The notes beneath the pieces are model-generated. The model had not been told where the DNA came from. It was given only the letters and a program-made list of their open reading frames with translations, and ran no database searches. 64,000 bases of DNA from positions 124,001 through 188,000 of the forward strand of contig SKKN01000025.1 of assembly GCA_007121455.1 (NCBI GenBank), given 5' to 3'. The number at the start of each line of letters is the position of its first letter. Positions within the stretch are counted from its first letter, which is position 1. The DNA is from Gemmatimonadota bacterium. GTDB taxonomy: Bacteria > Gemmatimonadota > Gemmatimonadetes > Longimicrobiales > Gaopeijiaceae. This document shows, in pieces, positions 3,782 through 16,975 of this stretch. The translations under genes and the position numbers were made by a program.

Positions 3782-3976
3782 CCTTCCTCTCCTCTCTTCG
3801 CAAATTCAGACGCCGTGACACCTCGACCTGCCCTTGCGGGCCCAAGCAAGAGCCGTGCCGTGCGTGTAGGATATCCTTCCCCCAGGGGCAGCGATACCTT
3901 ACACTCTTCGGAATGGCTTCGCGGGTCGCGACAGCACCTCGCGCCGCGAGCTTCCACCCGTGGACCCGGAGGTCCC

Positions 3977-4930
3977 ATGGCCAACACGATATCCAGACCG
4001 ATCGCTCGCTGCGCAGCCCTGTCCCTTTCCGCATTCCTCCTCGGGGGCTGCGACGGGGACGACAGCATGGGTCCCCTCGACGTCGTGGTGACGGAGGTGG
4101 ACGGGATCGGCCTCGAGCAGCCCGCGGCCGTCATCCATGACCCGGTGGACGACGTGTACCTCGTTTCGAACATCAGCGGCGCACCGGCAGACCGGGACGG
4201 CTCGGGCTTCATCTCGAAGCTCTCACCGGATGGGGAGGTCCTCGACCTTCACTGGGTCCGCCTGTTCGGGCCGGACCTGGCCCTGAACTCCCCGAGGGGA
4301 ATGGCGATCCGGGGCGACAGCCTCTTCGTGGCCGACCTCGACTGCGTCCGGCTCTTTCAGCGGACCGAGGGAACGGGCGTGGCACGGGTCTGCCTCGACG
4401 GCTCGACCTACCTCTCGGACGTGGACGTCGGCCCCGAGGGATCGATCTTCGTCGCCGACGCCGGGCTCCAGGCCGGGGCGAACGGGCTCGAAGCCAGCGG
4501 ATCCGACGCCGTCTATCGCGTCGTGCTGGAAGCCGGGCGGCAGGGCTCGACCCTGGCCCAGAGCCCCGAGCTGGGTCACCCGAGCGGCCTGGCCGTCGGC
4601 ACCCGCGGAATCTTCGTCACGACGTTCGGGACCGGCGAGATCTTCCGCCTCACCCCGGCCGGCGAGCGCACCTCGGTGATCCCGGCCTCGGGCCGGAGCT
4701 TCGATGGGATCGTCTTCCTCCCCGACGGCGGCTTCGCCTACTCGTCGTCGAGCGAATCGACGATCCATCTCGTCACCGGAGAGGGGCGGATCGTGCGCCT
4801 TCTGGAGGACATCCCGGAGCCAGGAGCCCTGGGGTACGATGAGGCGAGAAACCGTATCCTGGTGCCGCTGCTCTCCGAAAACCGAATCCTCTTCGTCGAC
4901 CTGCCCGATGAGCCGGACGACGCCCTGTGA
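3977..4930 (+). CDS. Beta-propeller (SMP-30/NHL-like) lipoprotein
   Basis: A 317-residue lipoprotein. The start at 3977 is chosen because it gives a proper lipoprotein signal with lipobox LLGGC (Cys about residue 24). The body consists of repeating units such as LNSPRGMAIRGDSLFVAD, VDVGPEGSIFVADAG and PSGLAVGTRGIFVTTFG, spaced as blades of a six-bladed propeller of the SMP-30/gluconolactonase or NHL type. Such proteins bind calcium or sugars, or serve as scaffolds; the ligand cannot be told. It ends 36 bases upstream of the promoter of the cysteine-rich leader unit and is probably a separate transcript. Confidence 0.8.
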   Translation: MANTISRPIARCAALSLSAFLLGGCDGDDSMGPLDVVVTEVDGIGLEQPAAVIHDPVDDVYLVSNISGAPADRDGSGFISKLSPDGEVLDLHWVRLFGPDLALNSPRGMAIRGDSLFVADLDCVRLFQRTEGTGVARVCLDGSTYLSDVDVGPEGSIFVADAGLQAGANGLEASGSDAVYRVVLEAGRQGSTLAQSPELGHPSGLAVGTRGIFVTTFGTGEIFRLTPAGERTSVIPASGRSFDGIVFLPDGGFAYSSSSESTIHLVTGEGRIVRLLEDIPEPGALGYDEARNRILVPLLSENRILFVDLPDEPDDAL

Positions 4931-4966
4931 AGACCGTGAGATCCCTGGGTTCGACGATCGCCGGGG

Positions 4967-4995
4967 TTGACAGTCGGCGGTGGCCTGGGTATTTA
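4967..4995 (+). promoter_or_regulatory. Sigma-70-type promoter of the cysteine-rich leader unit
   Basis: TTGACA at 4967-4972 and TATTTA at 4990-4995 are separated by exactly 17 bases. This is one of the clearest consensus-like promoters in the window. Transcription should begin at about 5001-5004, so the ATG at 5004 would be at or within three bases of the 5' end, making the short message leaderless. It is the only obvious promoter ahead of the susC-like gene at 5235. Confidence 0.7.
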
Positions 4996-5003
4996 CCTCC
5001 GTT

Positions 5004-5120
5004 ATGAGCGAGTACGGACGCACTTTCGTCTGCTGCATGTGCAGCTGTCTGTGTTGTGGGTGTCGCGAGATGCCCGGAACAGCGGAGCTGTGTACGTGTC
5101 GCAGGAGGAAGATGGTCTGA
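5004..5120 (+). CDS. Leaderless 38-residue cysteine-rich peptide, probable leader peptide
   Basis: A 38-codon frame with nine cysteines. Seven lie within 11 residues (CCMCSCLCCGC, residues 10-20), followed by CTC at 30-32 and a basic tail RRRKMV. It has no Shine-Dalgarno sequence, and its ATG nearly coincides with the expected transcript start. It is followed by hairpins and a strong terminator placed just before the susC-like gene. Polycysteine leaderless frames that attenuate downstream operons in response to cysteine are known in mycobacteria, and Cys-motif upstream frames (CruR) regulate a TonB receptor with copper in Bordetella. By analogy this is best read as a sensing leader peptide; a free-standing metal-binding peptide is the alternative. 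Confidence 0.6.
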   Translation: MSEYGRTFVCCMCSCLCCGCREMPGTAELCTCRRRKMV

Positions 5121-5131
5121 CCATCGCTTGA

Positions 5132-5149
5132 GCCGGGAGAGCACCCGGC
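5132..5149 (+). promoter_or_regulatory. Leader hairpin upstream of attenuator
   Basis: GCCGGG (5132-5137) and CCCGGC (5144-5149) form a perfect 6-bp stem with a 6-base loop. GCCGG of its left arm can alternatively pair with CCGGC at 5165-5169 inside the left arm of the following terminator, giving a possible antiterminator. Two smaller hairpins lie upstream within the cysteine frame (5032-5045 and 5079-5091). The alternative pairings are inferred by eye. Confidence 0.4.
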
Positions 5150-5160
5150 ACGAGAAATCC

Positions 5161-5202
5161 AAGACCGGCCGCAGCCACCCGAGCTGCGGCCGGTCTTTTT
5201 TT
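5161..5202 (+). terminator. Strong rho-independent terminator, probable attenuator of susC
   Basis: Arms 5161-5175 and 5183-5197 are perfectly complementary over 15 bp, with a 7-base loop, and the run of seven T residues reaches 5202. It follows the cysteine-rich frame by about 40 bases and ends only 32 bases before the susC ATG. That space holds a ribosome binding site (GAGG) but is too short for an independent promoter plus leader. Transcription of susC therefore most simply requires readthrough, which is the layout of an attenuator. Confidence 0.8.
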
Positions 5203-5234
5203 GTTCTGTCCCGCTTACGAGTCTGAGGAATACC

Positions 5235-8198
5235 ATGTCGACCGATTTCGAAACGAGTTTCGACGATGGGGCTGCGAGCACCGGGGCGAGTCGCCGAAGT
5301 GCTCGCCGCTCCCGCGGACGACTCACCACCCTTGCGATGGTCGGAGCCCTCCTCTGGATGGGCTCTGCCTCCTTGGAGGCCACCGAGCTTCCCTCTCCTT
5401 CGGTTCCTCCCGCTCCCGACTCGGAGGTCGGAACCATCTCCGGGGAGGTCCGAGCGGCCGGATCGGGACAGCCGCTCGTCAGCGTTCAGGTCGCGGTGAT
5501 CGGATCCGGAATCGGCACGATCACGGGGCCGGACGGTGGATTCGTTCTGGAAAACATCCCCGCCGGAGAACACGTGCTTCGGGCCCAGCTGCTCGGCTAT
5601 CGCACCGTGCAGGAGTCGGTGCACCTCGAGGCAGGTCAGAACGTGACCGTGGATCTCACGCTTTCCGAGAGCGCGATCGGGCTCGACGAAATCGTCGTCA
5701 CGGGTACAGCGGGCCAGGCTCGCAGACGGGAGGTAGGAAACCAGATCACGCAGATCAACATGGCTGAAGTGCAGGAGCCCGTGGCCTCCATGGATCAACT
5801 TCTCCAGGGACGGTCAACCGGCATGACGGTGACCTCCCACGGCGGAGCCTTCGGAGGCGGCGCCGCGATTCGGTTGAGGGGCAACGTCAGCCTTTCCATG
5901 AGCAATCAGCCACTCATCTTCATCGACGGTGTCCGTCAGTCCGCGGAAGGGTATCCGGTCAACAACACCGAGGGGGATTTTCCCCACTACGGCTCTAGCT
6001 CGCAGATGAGCCCCTTGAACGAGATCCACCCCGGGGACATCGAACGAATCGAAATCGTGAAGGGAGCGGCGGCGACGACACTCTACGGCTCCGAAGCCTC
6101 GGCCGGAGTCATCCAGATCTTCACCAGACAGGGAGCATCAGGAAGTCCCCAGTGGACCTTCCAATCGGACCATGGCGTCGACTGGGTGCGACCCTTCGGC
6201 TCGAGTCAGCGGCCCTACGTCGGTATGGAGCCGTTCTTGAGGAATGCGTACGGGACGCAGAACAGCCTCTCGGCATCCGGAGGGCTGGGAGCCGCCAACT
6301 ATTACCTTTCCGGCGTTTACGAGGTGGGCGACGGCGTACTTCCGAATGATCATCAAGACCGTGTCGGGCTGCGTGCGAACCTCTCCCTGGAAGCTCGATC
6401 GGATCTCCTCCTCCAGTTGCACACGGCCTATTCACGGCACGCCCTCGACATCACGCATACGGGCAACAGCGCGATGGCGATCCCCTTCTCCGTGTTCCGG
6501 GCGCCGAACAACGCCTTTGGAACCACTGACCCGGAGGTCATTCGAGAGCTCACGGATGCCAAGATCTGGCAGGACAACGACCGATTTCTGACGAGCCTGA
6601 CCGCGGTCTGGGAACCCAACTCGAGAACGACGCAACGTGCCACCGTGGGACTCGATCGAAGCGCCTTCCACGGGCGGCAACATCGGCCTCTCGGATTCAA
6701 CAACGATCCACAGGGGTCCATGTCGGACACCCGCTGGGAGAGCCGAACCATCACGCTGGATTACACCGGGAATTACACCCTCCTCCAGGATCCATCCGGT
6801 GAGGCGGTCGCCTCCACCCTGTCGTGGGGTCTTCAGGGAACCTCTACCGAGGAATCCAAGCTCGACGGTTTCGGGCGTGGCTTTCCAGGCCCGGGACGAC
6901 ACACCCTGAGCAACATGGCCTCCGGGCTCCTCTTCAGCTCCGAGCAGAGACGGGTGTCCGGAGGATTCTTCGGCCAGAGCATGGTGGCGTTTCGTGACCG
7001 GGTCTTCGTCACCGCCGGAGCTCGGGTCGACGGACACAGTGTTTTCGGGGAGAACCTCGGGCTTCAAACGTACCCGAAGTTGAGCGCCTCGTGGGTGATT
7101 TCGGATGAGGCTCTCTGGCCCGAGAGCTGGGGCGACGTGAAACTGCGCGCGGCATACGGACTTGCAGGCCGTGCCCCCGGAGCATTCGATGCGGTCCAGA
7201 CCTGGACCGCACACTCGTTCGGAGGAGCCGCGTCATTCATCCCGGAAAACGTAGGGAACCCGGAACTCGGACCCGAGAAAACCCGGGAGACGGAGGTCGG
7301 CTTCGACGGTTCCTGGCTCAATGGGCGGCTCGCTGTCGACTTCACCTTTTACCACCAGGACACCAGAGACGCATTATTCGCCATTGCCCAGCCTCCGACT
7401 CAGGGCTTCCTGAGCAGCCAGCTGGAGAATGTCGGGGCGCTCTCCAATCGGGGACTCGAGCTGAGCGTCGATGGGAGGGTGATGGAGCAGCCGGGCTTCA
7501 CCTGGAATCTCGGTGCCAACCTTTCCACGAACCGGAGTGAAGTCCTCGATATCGGCACGGCAACGGTGTCGTCGATCGTGGAGGGGCATCCGGCCCCGGT
7601 GATGCGCGGCGCCTATGTTCGAAACGCTGATGCGTTCGAAGATCCCGATATCGATCCAGACCACTTCTATGGGCCGAACGCGCCTACGCGGATCGTCGGC
7701 CTGAACACCTCCCTCGACTTCCGCAATGGGGTCTCTCTCAGCGCGCGAGGAGAGTACCAGGGAGGTCACTACATCCGGGACGGGACCTCACACAACATGG
7801 TAAACCGAGGAGCCGGAGCTCCCGGATGCGATGATGCGTACGAACACGTTCCGTATTCCGATTACCCGCAGGGGGACTTGAGCCAGGTAACAGCCCTCGA
7901 TCGGGCGCGGTGCTACCGGGAAAGCCTGCTCAACGGAATGTGGAACATTCCTGCGGACTTCTTCAAGGTGCGCGAAATCACCCTGCACGTGCCGGCGACA
8001 CGAGTAGTGCCCGGAGCCCGGACGGCGAGCCTCACTTTTTCGCTTCGGAACGCGTTCCGCTGGACGAACGACGACTTTCCTTCGTTCGATCCGGAAATGA
8101 TCCCGAGCCGGGATTCACTGTCCTCGCTCTTCGTTGGAATCACGGAACACGTTCCCGACCCCGCGCGCGTTGCCGTGTCGCTTCGGGTCACATTTTGA
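5235..8198 (+). CDS. SusC/RagA-family TonB-linked outer-membrane transporter
   Basis: A 987-residue outer-membrane importer. After a long N-terminus (about 50 residues with a hydrophobic stretch), residues about 60-145 form a carboxypeptidase-regulatory-like domain (ISGEVRAAGSGQPLVSVQVA, later FVLENIPAGEHVLRAQLLGY). LDEIVVTGTA follows as the TonB-box region, then a plug (IRLRGNVSLSMSNQPLIFID and IERIEIVKGAAATTLYGSEA, the SusC signature) and a large barrel ending in AVSLRVTF. It works with the SusD-like lipoprotein 18 bases downstream to import a TonB-energised nutrient. The substrate is unknown; no glycoside hydrolase or peptidase is adjacent. Probably controlled by the upstream cysteine leader and attenuator. 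Confidence 0.92.
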   Translation: MSTDFETSFDDGAASTGASRRSARRSRGRLTTLAMVGALLWMGSASLEATELPSPSVPPAPDSEVGTISGEVRAAGSGQPLVSVQVAVIGSGIGTITGPDGGFVLENIPAGEHVLRAQLLGYRTVQESVHLEAGQNVTVDLTLSESAIGLDEIVVTGTAGQARRREVGNQITQINMAEVQEPVASMDQLLQGRSTGMTVTSHGGAFGGGAAIRLRGNVSLSMSNQPLIFIDGVRQSAEGYPVNNTEGDFPHYGSSSQMSPLNEIHPGDIERIEIVKGAAATTLYGSEASAGVIQIFTRQGASGSPQWTFQSDHGVDWVRPFGSSQRPYVGMEPFLRNAYGTQNSLSASGGLGAANYYLSGVYEVGDGVLPNDHQDRVGLRANLSLEARSDLLLQLHTAYSRHALDITHTGNSAMAIPFSVFRAPNNAFGTTDPEVIRELTDAKIWQDNDRFLTSLTAVWEPNSRTTQRATVGLDRSAFHGRQHRPLGFNNDPQGSMSDTRWESRTITLDYTGNYTLLQDPSGEAVASTLSWGLQGTSTEESKLDGFGRGFPGPGRHTLSNMASGLLFSSEQRRVSGGFFGQSMVAFRDRVFVTAGARVDGHSVFGENLGLQTYPKLSASWVISDEALWPESWGDVKLRAAYGLAGRAPGAFDAVQTWTAHSFGGAASFIPENVGNPELGPEKTRETEVGFDGSWLNGRLAVDFTFYHQDTRDALFAIAQPPTQGFLSSQLENVGALSNRGLELSVDGRVMEQPGFTWNLGANLSTNRSEVLDIGTATVSSIVEGHPAPVMRGAYVRNADAFEDPDIDPDHFYGPNAPTRIVGLNTSLDFRNGVSLSARGEYQGGHYIRDGTSHNMVNRGAGAPGCDDAYEHVPYSDYPQGDLSQVTALDRARCYRESLLNGMWNIPADFFKVREITLHVPATRVVPGARTASLTFSLRNAFRWTNDDFPSFDPEMIPSRDSLSSLFVGITEHVPDPARVAVSLRVTF

Positions 8199-8216: not shown

Positions 8217-9497
8217 ATGAGACGCATACGTTTCACTGTGTTCGGAGCGCTCCTCGTGCTTGCGGCCTGCGACTTCGACGTCAGTAATCCAGGACCGATC
8301 GAGGCCGACGCGCTCAACGATCCGGCCGCGTTCGAGGGACTGGTCCGCGGCATGAGCCAAGCGACGTCCTTCGCGCTCTGGCGCTTGGCCTTCGTCGGTG
8401 GAGAGGTGAGTCGGGAGCTGATCGAAGCCGGCCGGTTCTTCTCTCCCAAATTGCCCGTGGTCCCCGGTCAGCTGACGCAGGAATCGATCGGCTCGCGCTA
8501 CTGGAATCCCGCGGTCCGCGCGCGCTGGGTAGCGGAGGATGGAGTGCGGCGGTTCAGGGAGCTTCTGGACGACTTCGACAGCTCTCCGCTGGCCGTGCGC
8601 GCCCTGCTGCACGCCGGCTTCGCCAACCGGATGCTGGGAGAGAACTTCTGTGAAGCCGTCATCGACAGTGGGCCCGCTGAGCCGAACGAGGTCTACTTCG
8701 AGAGAGCGGAGGGCCAATTCACCGAGGCGCTCCGCATCGCGGAGACCCTGGGGGACTCGGAGGCCGTCCATGCGGCGAGGGCAGGACGAGCCGGCGTCAG
8801 GATCTATCTGGATGACTGGCCGGGCGCTGCTGACGATGCGGCGAGCGTCCCCGATGGATTCGTGCGGGAGGCCGAGTACTATGGGGACCAGGGCTTGGAT
8901 CAGTACAACAATCTCTATTGGTCCAACGCCAATTCACCCTTCCGCACGTACAGCATCGCCGAGACTTTCTACGAGAGCTACTACGAAGAGACAGGGGATC
9001 CCCGAGCCGCCTGGGGCACGGACCCGAACCAGCCCGTAGGAGAGCTTGCGCACGTACGCTGGCTGTTCACGGTCAACAAGCACAACGATTTCGATGCACC
9101 CATCAACGTGGCGAGCGGTCGGGAAATGCGCCTGATCGAAGCAGAAGCGCAGCTCCGCCGAGGTGACGCCGCGGCTGCGGTGAACATCCTGAATGATCTC
9201 CGGCACACAGTGGTTTCCGACCACGACGGTGCCCCGCTCGCACCCTGGCCGGAGACGGCAGATCTGGAGAAGGCGTGGGAATACCTGAAGCTGGAGCGAG
9301 GAATCGAACTGTGGATCGAGGGACGGCGCATGGGAGATCTTCGGCGATGGACAGCAGACGGGTCTCTCGGCGAAACGGTAGATGTGTCGGATCGAATCCG
9401 CCTCTGCCTCCCGATCGCGGACAGCGAGAAGGACACGAACCCCAACCTCGACCCAAATCATCAGGACCCAATCAACCCCGCGTACACGGGACGCTGA
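8217..9497 (+). CDS. SusD/RagB-family nutrient-binding lipoprotein
   Basis: A 426-residue surface lipoprotein with signal LVLAAC (lipobox Cys about residue 18), then the mature start DFDVSNPGPIEADAL that is typical of SusD-like proteins of this type. The C-terminal region contains EMRLIEAEAQLRRGDAAAAV and LERGIELWIEGRRMGDLRRW, the TPR-like helices and closing motif of the family. It caps the SusC barrel at 5235 and is translated from the same message (18-base gap, GAGAAGAGGGGAAA ahead of the ATG). It is somewhat shorter than the usual 500 or so residues. Confidence 0.9.
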   Translation: MRRIRFTVFGALLVLAACDFDVSNPGPIEADALNDPAAFEGLVRGMSQATSFALWRLAFVGGEVSRELIEAGRFFSPKLPVVPGQLTQESIGSRYWNPAVRARWVAEDGVRRFRELLDDFDSSPLAVRALLHAGFANRMLGENFCEAVIDSGPAEPNEVYFERAEGQFTEALRIAETLGDSEAVHAARAGRAGVRIYLDDWPGAADDAASVPDGFVREAEYYGDQGLDQYNNLYWSNANSPFRTYSIAETFYESYYEETGDPRAAWGTDPNQPVGELAHVRWLFTVNKHNDFDAPINVASGREMRLIEAEAQLRRGDAAAAVNILNDLRHTVVSDHDGAPLAPWPETADLEKAWEYLKLERGIELWIEGRRMGDLRRWTADGSLGETVDVSDRIRLCLPIADSEKDTNPNLDPNHQDPINPAYTGR

Positions 9498-14947: not shown

Positions 14948-16848
<1,901 letters not shown>

Positions 16849-16975
16849 TATGAAAAACCTACCACGTCTTCGTCGACCACGCCATCTCGACCCCCTCCCC
16901 CCTTGCGCCTGCCACCCTTACCTTGAGGCCGCTCGGCACGCGTGAATCATCACGGAAACGAGGAGCCTGGTGGGA

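Follow-up and report, generated by a model that had tools for sequence, protein, structure and literature searches.

A predicted cysteine-codon attenuator ahead of a susC–susD operon in Gemmatimonadota, and its counterparts at cysH

SusCD importers of the outer membrane are usually associated with glycan or peptide uptake and with regulation by proteins. A 64,000-nucleotide stretch of DNA from the phylum Gemmatimonadota (the window; positions 124,001 to 188,000 of contig SKKN01000025.1 in the 3.5-Mb draft genome GCA_007121455.1, here G000) raises the question of what a short reading frame crowded with Cys codons, followed by an intrinsic terminator, is doing directly ahead of a susC–susD pair. 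A preliminary description of this locus had proposed cysteine-codon attenuation, which is now well supported: 14 genomes of the same family carry a unit of promoter, poly-Cys frame and terminator at cysH, and the closest susC orthologue has a Cys-bearing version. Cysteine shortage very probably switches on the SusCD importer through the Cys-rich frame and its terminator, and we consider it likely that the leader region is a ribosome-mediated (trp-type) attenuator which reads charged tRNA-Cys and controls susC–susD, the importer bringing in reduced sulfur. Cysteine attenuation is a known mechanism; SusCD would be a new target.

How is the locus built? The intergenic region 4930–5235, from the end of the upstream gene to the start of susC, comprises a promoter, the Cys-rich frame and an intrinsic terminator, and re-checking bore out the preliminary description of these parts, i.e. 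the coordinates, the Cys counts, the promoter, the 38-codon frame without a Shine-Dalgarno sequence, the 15-bp terminator with seven T residues and the 32-nt gap before susC. The promoter, TTGACA–17–TATTTA, lies at 4967–4995 on the forward strand (TTGACA at 4967–4972, TATTTA at 4990–4995); a strict promoter scan reports none here because TATTTA matches TATAAT in just three of six positions. The leader frame (5004–5120, forward strand; ATG at 5004, stop codon TGA at 5118–5120) encodes the peptide MSEYGRTFVCCMCSCLCCGCREMPGTAELCTCRRRKMV, in which seven of the nine Cys residues fall within 11 codons. The −10 element ends 8 nt from the leader ATG, and this spacing, together with the missing Shine-Dalgarno sequence, makes a leaderless or near-leaderless start plausible. 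The regulatory Cys-codon block (segment 1, 5028–5063) is followed by segment 2, the predicted antiterminator AGCTGTGTACGTGTCG (5086–5101), by a small GCCGGG/CCCGGC hairpin between leader stop and terminator (5133–5150) and by the terminator itself (5161–5202; stem at 5161–5197, then the T run), all on the forward strand, with the susC ATG at 5235.

The genes downstream form a SusC/SusD operon, as had been proposed. The first, susC (5235–8198, forward strand), encodes a TonB-dependent outer-membrane receptor of 987 amino acids with Pfam matches to TonB receptor, Plug and CarbopepD_reg_2, and susD (8217–9497, forward strand), which starts 18 nt after it, encodes a SusD/RagB lipoprotein of 426 amino acids with a match to SusD_RagB. 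The pair has the features of a SusCD importer, viz. a SusC that carries an N-terminal extension as well as plug and barrel, as judged from Pfam and from SusC relatives among solved structures, and an adjoining SusD lipoprotein.

How might such a leader control the operon? RNA polymerase would initiate just upstream of the leader frame. With ample Cys-tRNA, the ribosome would clear the Cys codons and reach the leader stop, the terminator would fold and the transcript would end short of susC. With scarce Cys-tRNA, the ribosome would stall in the Cys block, the downstream segment would be free to capture the 5′ terminator arm, and the polymerase would continue into susCD. The importer would then take up a reduced sulfur source, most likely Cys-containing peptides or another organic sulfur compound. 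The order of these events is borrowed from well-known amino-acid attenuators; the stalling, the antitermination, the inducer and the substrate are inferred.

The pairings that such a scheme uses can be predicted in the leaders. In the folded window leader 84% of the Cys block is paired with the later part of the leader, in keeping with the pairing predicted between segments 1 and 2 when no ribosome is present, and the segment after the Cys block can form a predicted duplex with the 5′ terminator arm (−15.7 kcal/mol). Each of the 14 leaders compared has the best partner of its terminator arm within the leader frame, a little ahead of the stop, and at the same place with respect to the Cys block and the stop. 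The terminator arms vary by genus and their partners vary along with them, e.g. GCCACCGG/CCGGTGG and GGAGCCCCGGCCTCT/GAGAGGCCGGGG. Scored against dinucleotide shuffles, the antiterminator pairing gave p = 1.7e-4 for the combined leader set and 0.003 with one leader per genus; among single leaders, L022 and L193 each reached p = 0.018.

Does the element belong to a wider set? A short-peptide search returned a single weak match within the family, a Cys-rich frame and terminator directly before cysH. The family genomes with a PAPS (3′-phosphoadenosine 5′-phosphosulfate) reductase match (PF01507) were collected and 16 cysH-type loci compared, of which 14, in 14 genomes, carry a Cys-rich frame with a terminator. 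Ten were detected by automatic scan (G144, G003, G115, G015, G048, G098, G138, G137, G143 and G045) and four by reading the sequence: G141 (two Cys), G047 (three Cys), G136 (imperfect terminator) and G139 (no usual start codon). The two remaining loci are one cut by a contig end (G022, where a leader alone, L202, lies at another contig end) and one encoding a different PF01507 protein (G101). The genes after the cysH leaders are PAPS reductases with the C-terminal motif ECG(L/I)H and a PF01507 match, and G015 has a second leader unit ahead of a tetrapyrrole methylase (siroheme) gene and cysD. Most of these leaders are preceded by a TTGACN–17–TARACT promoter and have an apparent 5′ untranslated region of tens of nucleotides; at G048 (L182) the promoter ends 8 nt before the ATG, identical to the window.

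The spacing of Cys residues varies among the leaders (CCMCSCLCCGC, CCRTMC, CCAMCCCC, CCCRCSC), and Cys content and the use of TGT are kept. TGT accounts for six of the nine Cys codons in the window leader versus 18 of 134 in the long frames of the window (p = 7e-4), and for 40 of 64 when the leaders are pooled (p = 5e-12 against the same window genes); TGT is rare in this GC-rich genome, and its use at the regulatory position is what codon sensing would predict, unlike a peptide that binds metal. On sequence grounds, the window element is a member of a cysteine-attenuator set in its family (loci L176–L191, L193 and L202). It shares with the cysH leaders the type of promoter, the TGT-biased poly-Cys frame, the predicted segment 2 within that frame and the terminator close after it; it differs in its target, SusCD and not sulfate assimilation, and in the distance from stop codon to stem, 40 nt versus 21–29 nt in most relatives. 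The hairpin at 5133–5150, possibly a pause hairpin, accounts for this wider gap. In the literature searched we found no earlier description of cysteine attenuators in Gemmatimonadota.

Is the leader also conserved at susC? The preliminary description had named a lack of conservation upstream of susC homologues as grounds for refutation; applied here, this test gives a divided answer, the layout being present at the nearest orthologue and at none of the more distant homologues. The best orthologue, L022 in genome G020 of another genus, is 61–62% identical, and the SusC tree places the window susC, that of G020 and that of G009 in one clade with support of 100/100 (two rows of the tree, L026 and L228, are wrong-frame translations and fall outside this clade). 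Upstream of the L022 susC is a short frame (ATGATGATGTGTTGTCGCACCATGTGC... / VHTLRSMMMCCRTMCGSPQGEAVGCAHAHVMRR) with four Cys, which is below the detection level of the automatic Cys scan and was recognised by reading the sequence; a TTGACA lies about 100 nt upstream, and 36 nt before the susC start stands a terminator whose 15-bp stem is followed by a T run. The gene upstream of this leader differs from that upstream of the window leader. The contig of G009 ends at susC, so the comparison covers the upstream regions of the other two members of the clade. About 30 other susC upstream regions in the family showed no comparable terminator close to susC, and absence of the leader from the more distant homologues indicates a feature confined to one small clade.

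A DNA search with the window leader in 39 relatives found only the leader itself, the remaining matches being short fragments that are GC-rich or resemble hairpins. Cys-codon patterns, sought exactly and with one mismatch among relatives and across the phylum, matched no more often than the reversed-pattern control, i.e. as noise, and a leader profile run over 394 genomes of the class gave no convincing match beyond the family. Recurrent Cys-pattern matches in another family were rejected as leaders, being an interspersed GCGTCTGCTGCGTCTGT-type repeat beside tRNA genes. The interspersed repeat (GCGTCTGCTGCGTCTGTGCGTCT type) near tRNA and gidA-like genes reads CVCCVC by chance (L121 and L124; G225, G309, G329 and G342).

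What would a lineage gain by placing an importer under such a control? Neither G000 nor G020 has a match to PAPS_reduct (PF01507), a model that covers both CysH and CysD, and the single match in G009 is of the CysD type; a sulfite/nitrite reductase match is missing from all three. The cysH-leader genomes G015, G045 and G003 possess CysH and a sulfite reductase match. The cysE model matched above its cut-off in none of six genomes and is therefore non-discriminating. The lineage of G000, G020 and G009 thus appears, from its gene content, to need sulfur in reduced form; cysteine synthase-type (cysK-type) enzymes are present in all three, so full cysteine auxotrophy is not claimed and sulfide may still be used. 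A profile search of G000 found no second leader, and since its sole detected cysteine attenuator apparently drives an outer-membrane importer, the natural cargo of SusCD would be reduced organic sulfur, which is probably what it carries. A longer history, in which the lineage lost sulfate reduction and the cysteine attenuator used by its relatives at cysH now drives a SusCD dedicated to the uptake of cysteine or organic sulfur, we regard as evenly balanced between true and false.

Several observations weigh against this account of the locus. Taken alone, the window antiterminator does not outdo shuffled sequence of high GC content (p = 0.35, and 0.18 in a second test), and a family-wide test of terminator-arm occupancy that masks the stalled ribosome gives a borderline value (0.06). 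Segment 2 sits 16–32 nt ahead of the leader stop, so that a ribosome paused at the stop would leave it partly uncovered and termination would need the pairing of segments 1 and 2, or moving ribosomes. The frame at the orthologue L022 has only four Cys, and a DNA alignment of the window and L022 leaders is no better than shuffles; their likeness is one of layout only, and it is therefore unproven that the leaders themselves share an ancestor. Scans for Cys frames in the roughly 30 susC upstream regions of the family, at five paralogues in the same genome and at 24 loci from other genomes revealed no further leader. Lastly, the gene absences rest on draft genomes that are 95–97% complete, although an absence common to three related genomes makes a gap in each unlikely.

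The most durable alternative accepts the same cysteine attenuator and changes the cargo: the importer may be one member of a response to cysteine or general starvation, bringing in, for example, peptides or glycans for carbon. The sequence does not name the cargo, the closest solved SusC structures include both glycan and peptide importers, and within the window no sulfur gene adjoins susCD. All other leader targets found in the family, however, belong to sulfur assimilation, and the genomes with a leader-bearing susC are those that lack matches to sulfate-assimilation genes. We consider a sulfur-free cargo unlikely, if a good deal more credible than the explanations that follow.

It could also be argued that the arrangement is fortuitous, i.e. 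that the terminator belongs to the lipoprotein-like gene upstream, that no ribosome translates the Cys frame and that susC is served by a promoter which escaped detection. The failure of the leader DNA to align with that of the orthologue and the empty strict promoter scan would suit this explanation. Against it, the leader is the densest Cys cluster across all six frames of the window, and 11-codon stretches with at least six Cys occurred in none of 200 simulated windows (first-order Markov); Cys makes up 24% of the leader peptide versus 0.74% of residues in the long frames of the window. The terminator hairpin (−31.6 kcal/mol, z = −8.0), the leader frame from the Cys codons to the stop (z = −3.1) and the whole leader (z = −6.4) fold well. 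A TTGACA promoter stands between the end of the upstream gene at 4930 and the Cys frame, just 32 nt separate the terminator from the susC ATG, the layout recurs before L022 despite the different upstream gene, and the cysH leaders are made of the same parts. A chance arrangement is thus very improbable.

The least probable explanation, a Cys-rich peptide acting as a metal or copper sensor, an arrest peptide like CruR or a tiny metallothionein with its codons irrelevant, could draw on CXC and CC spacings that might bind metal and on the control of a TonB receptor by CruR (PMC9426467), and is hardly tenable given that the leaders conserve their Cys content and TGT use but not the Cys spacing, that the window peptide has neither a RAPP-like motif nor a signal peptide, that its terminator is intrinsic and that its relatives stand at cysH, a cysteine pathway gene. 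The CruR analogy drawn in the preliminary description consequently breaks down. CruR (bp2923) of Bordetella is an exported DUF2946 protein of 145 residues with a copper-binding CXXC, a RAPP arrest motif and Rho-dependent termination (PMC9426467); the likeness is that of an upstream frame ahead of a TonB receptor, the window peptide having 38 residues (an added role for Rho is possible). With the analogy goes the thiophilic-metal inducer that had been suggested, which is unlikely.

The window leader has closer counterparts elsewhere. Mycobacterial polycysteine leaderless short open reading frames confer cysteine-responsive attenuation on the downstream operon (Canestrari et al. 2020, doi 10.1111/mmi.14498, as described in PMC9031893), and they resemble the window leader in the short, Cys-codon-rich frame, the possible leaderless start and the cysteine signal that we infer here. 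They belong to another phylum, and the window target is an outer-membrane importer. Earlier predicted cys leaders of actinobacteria carry their Cys runs close to the stop and lack a conserved intrinsic terminator (PMC1262725); unlike in these and the mycobacterial leaders, about 18 further codons and a strong intrinsic terminator come after the window Cys block. In Rhodobacterales, uORFC-8-2 upstream of cysS combines tandem Cys codons with an intrinsic terminator and is a predicted ribosome-mediated attenuator (PMC8632094), but it has two Cys codons only, a conserved RNA structure and a cysteinyl-tRNA synthetase as its target, in alphaproteobacteria (PMC8632094). Attenuators of the trp and his type share with the window regulatory codons, three mutually exclusive hairpins (here predicted) and an intrinsic terminator; in the window the stop codon comes after segment 2, not before it.

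No SusCD system under a cysteine-codon attenuator was found in the literature searched. If the proposed reading is true, such an attenuator would offer a sequence-based clue to SusCD cargo, here reduced sulfur, and a regulator of biosynthesis would have been transferred to an importer that scavenges, once the pathway was gone. Intrinsic-terminator cysteine attenuators would also extend to Gemmatimonadota, with a whole set at cysH.

Two minor observations concern the surroundings. The gene preceding the attenuator (3914–4930, forward strand) encodes a lipoprotein-like product without a Pfam match and is unrelated to susC. An Rfam scan of the window left the leader unmatched; its sole match is a thiamine pyrophosphate (TPP) riboswitch, RF00059, at 16752–16849 on the reverse strand (61.5 bits).

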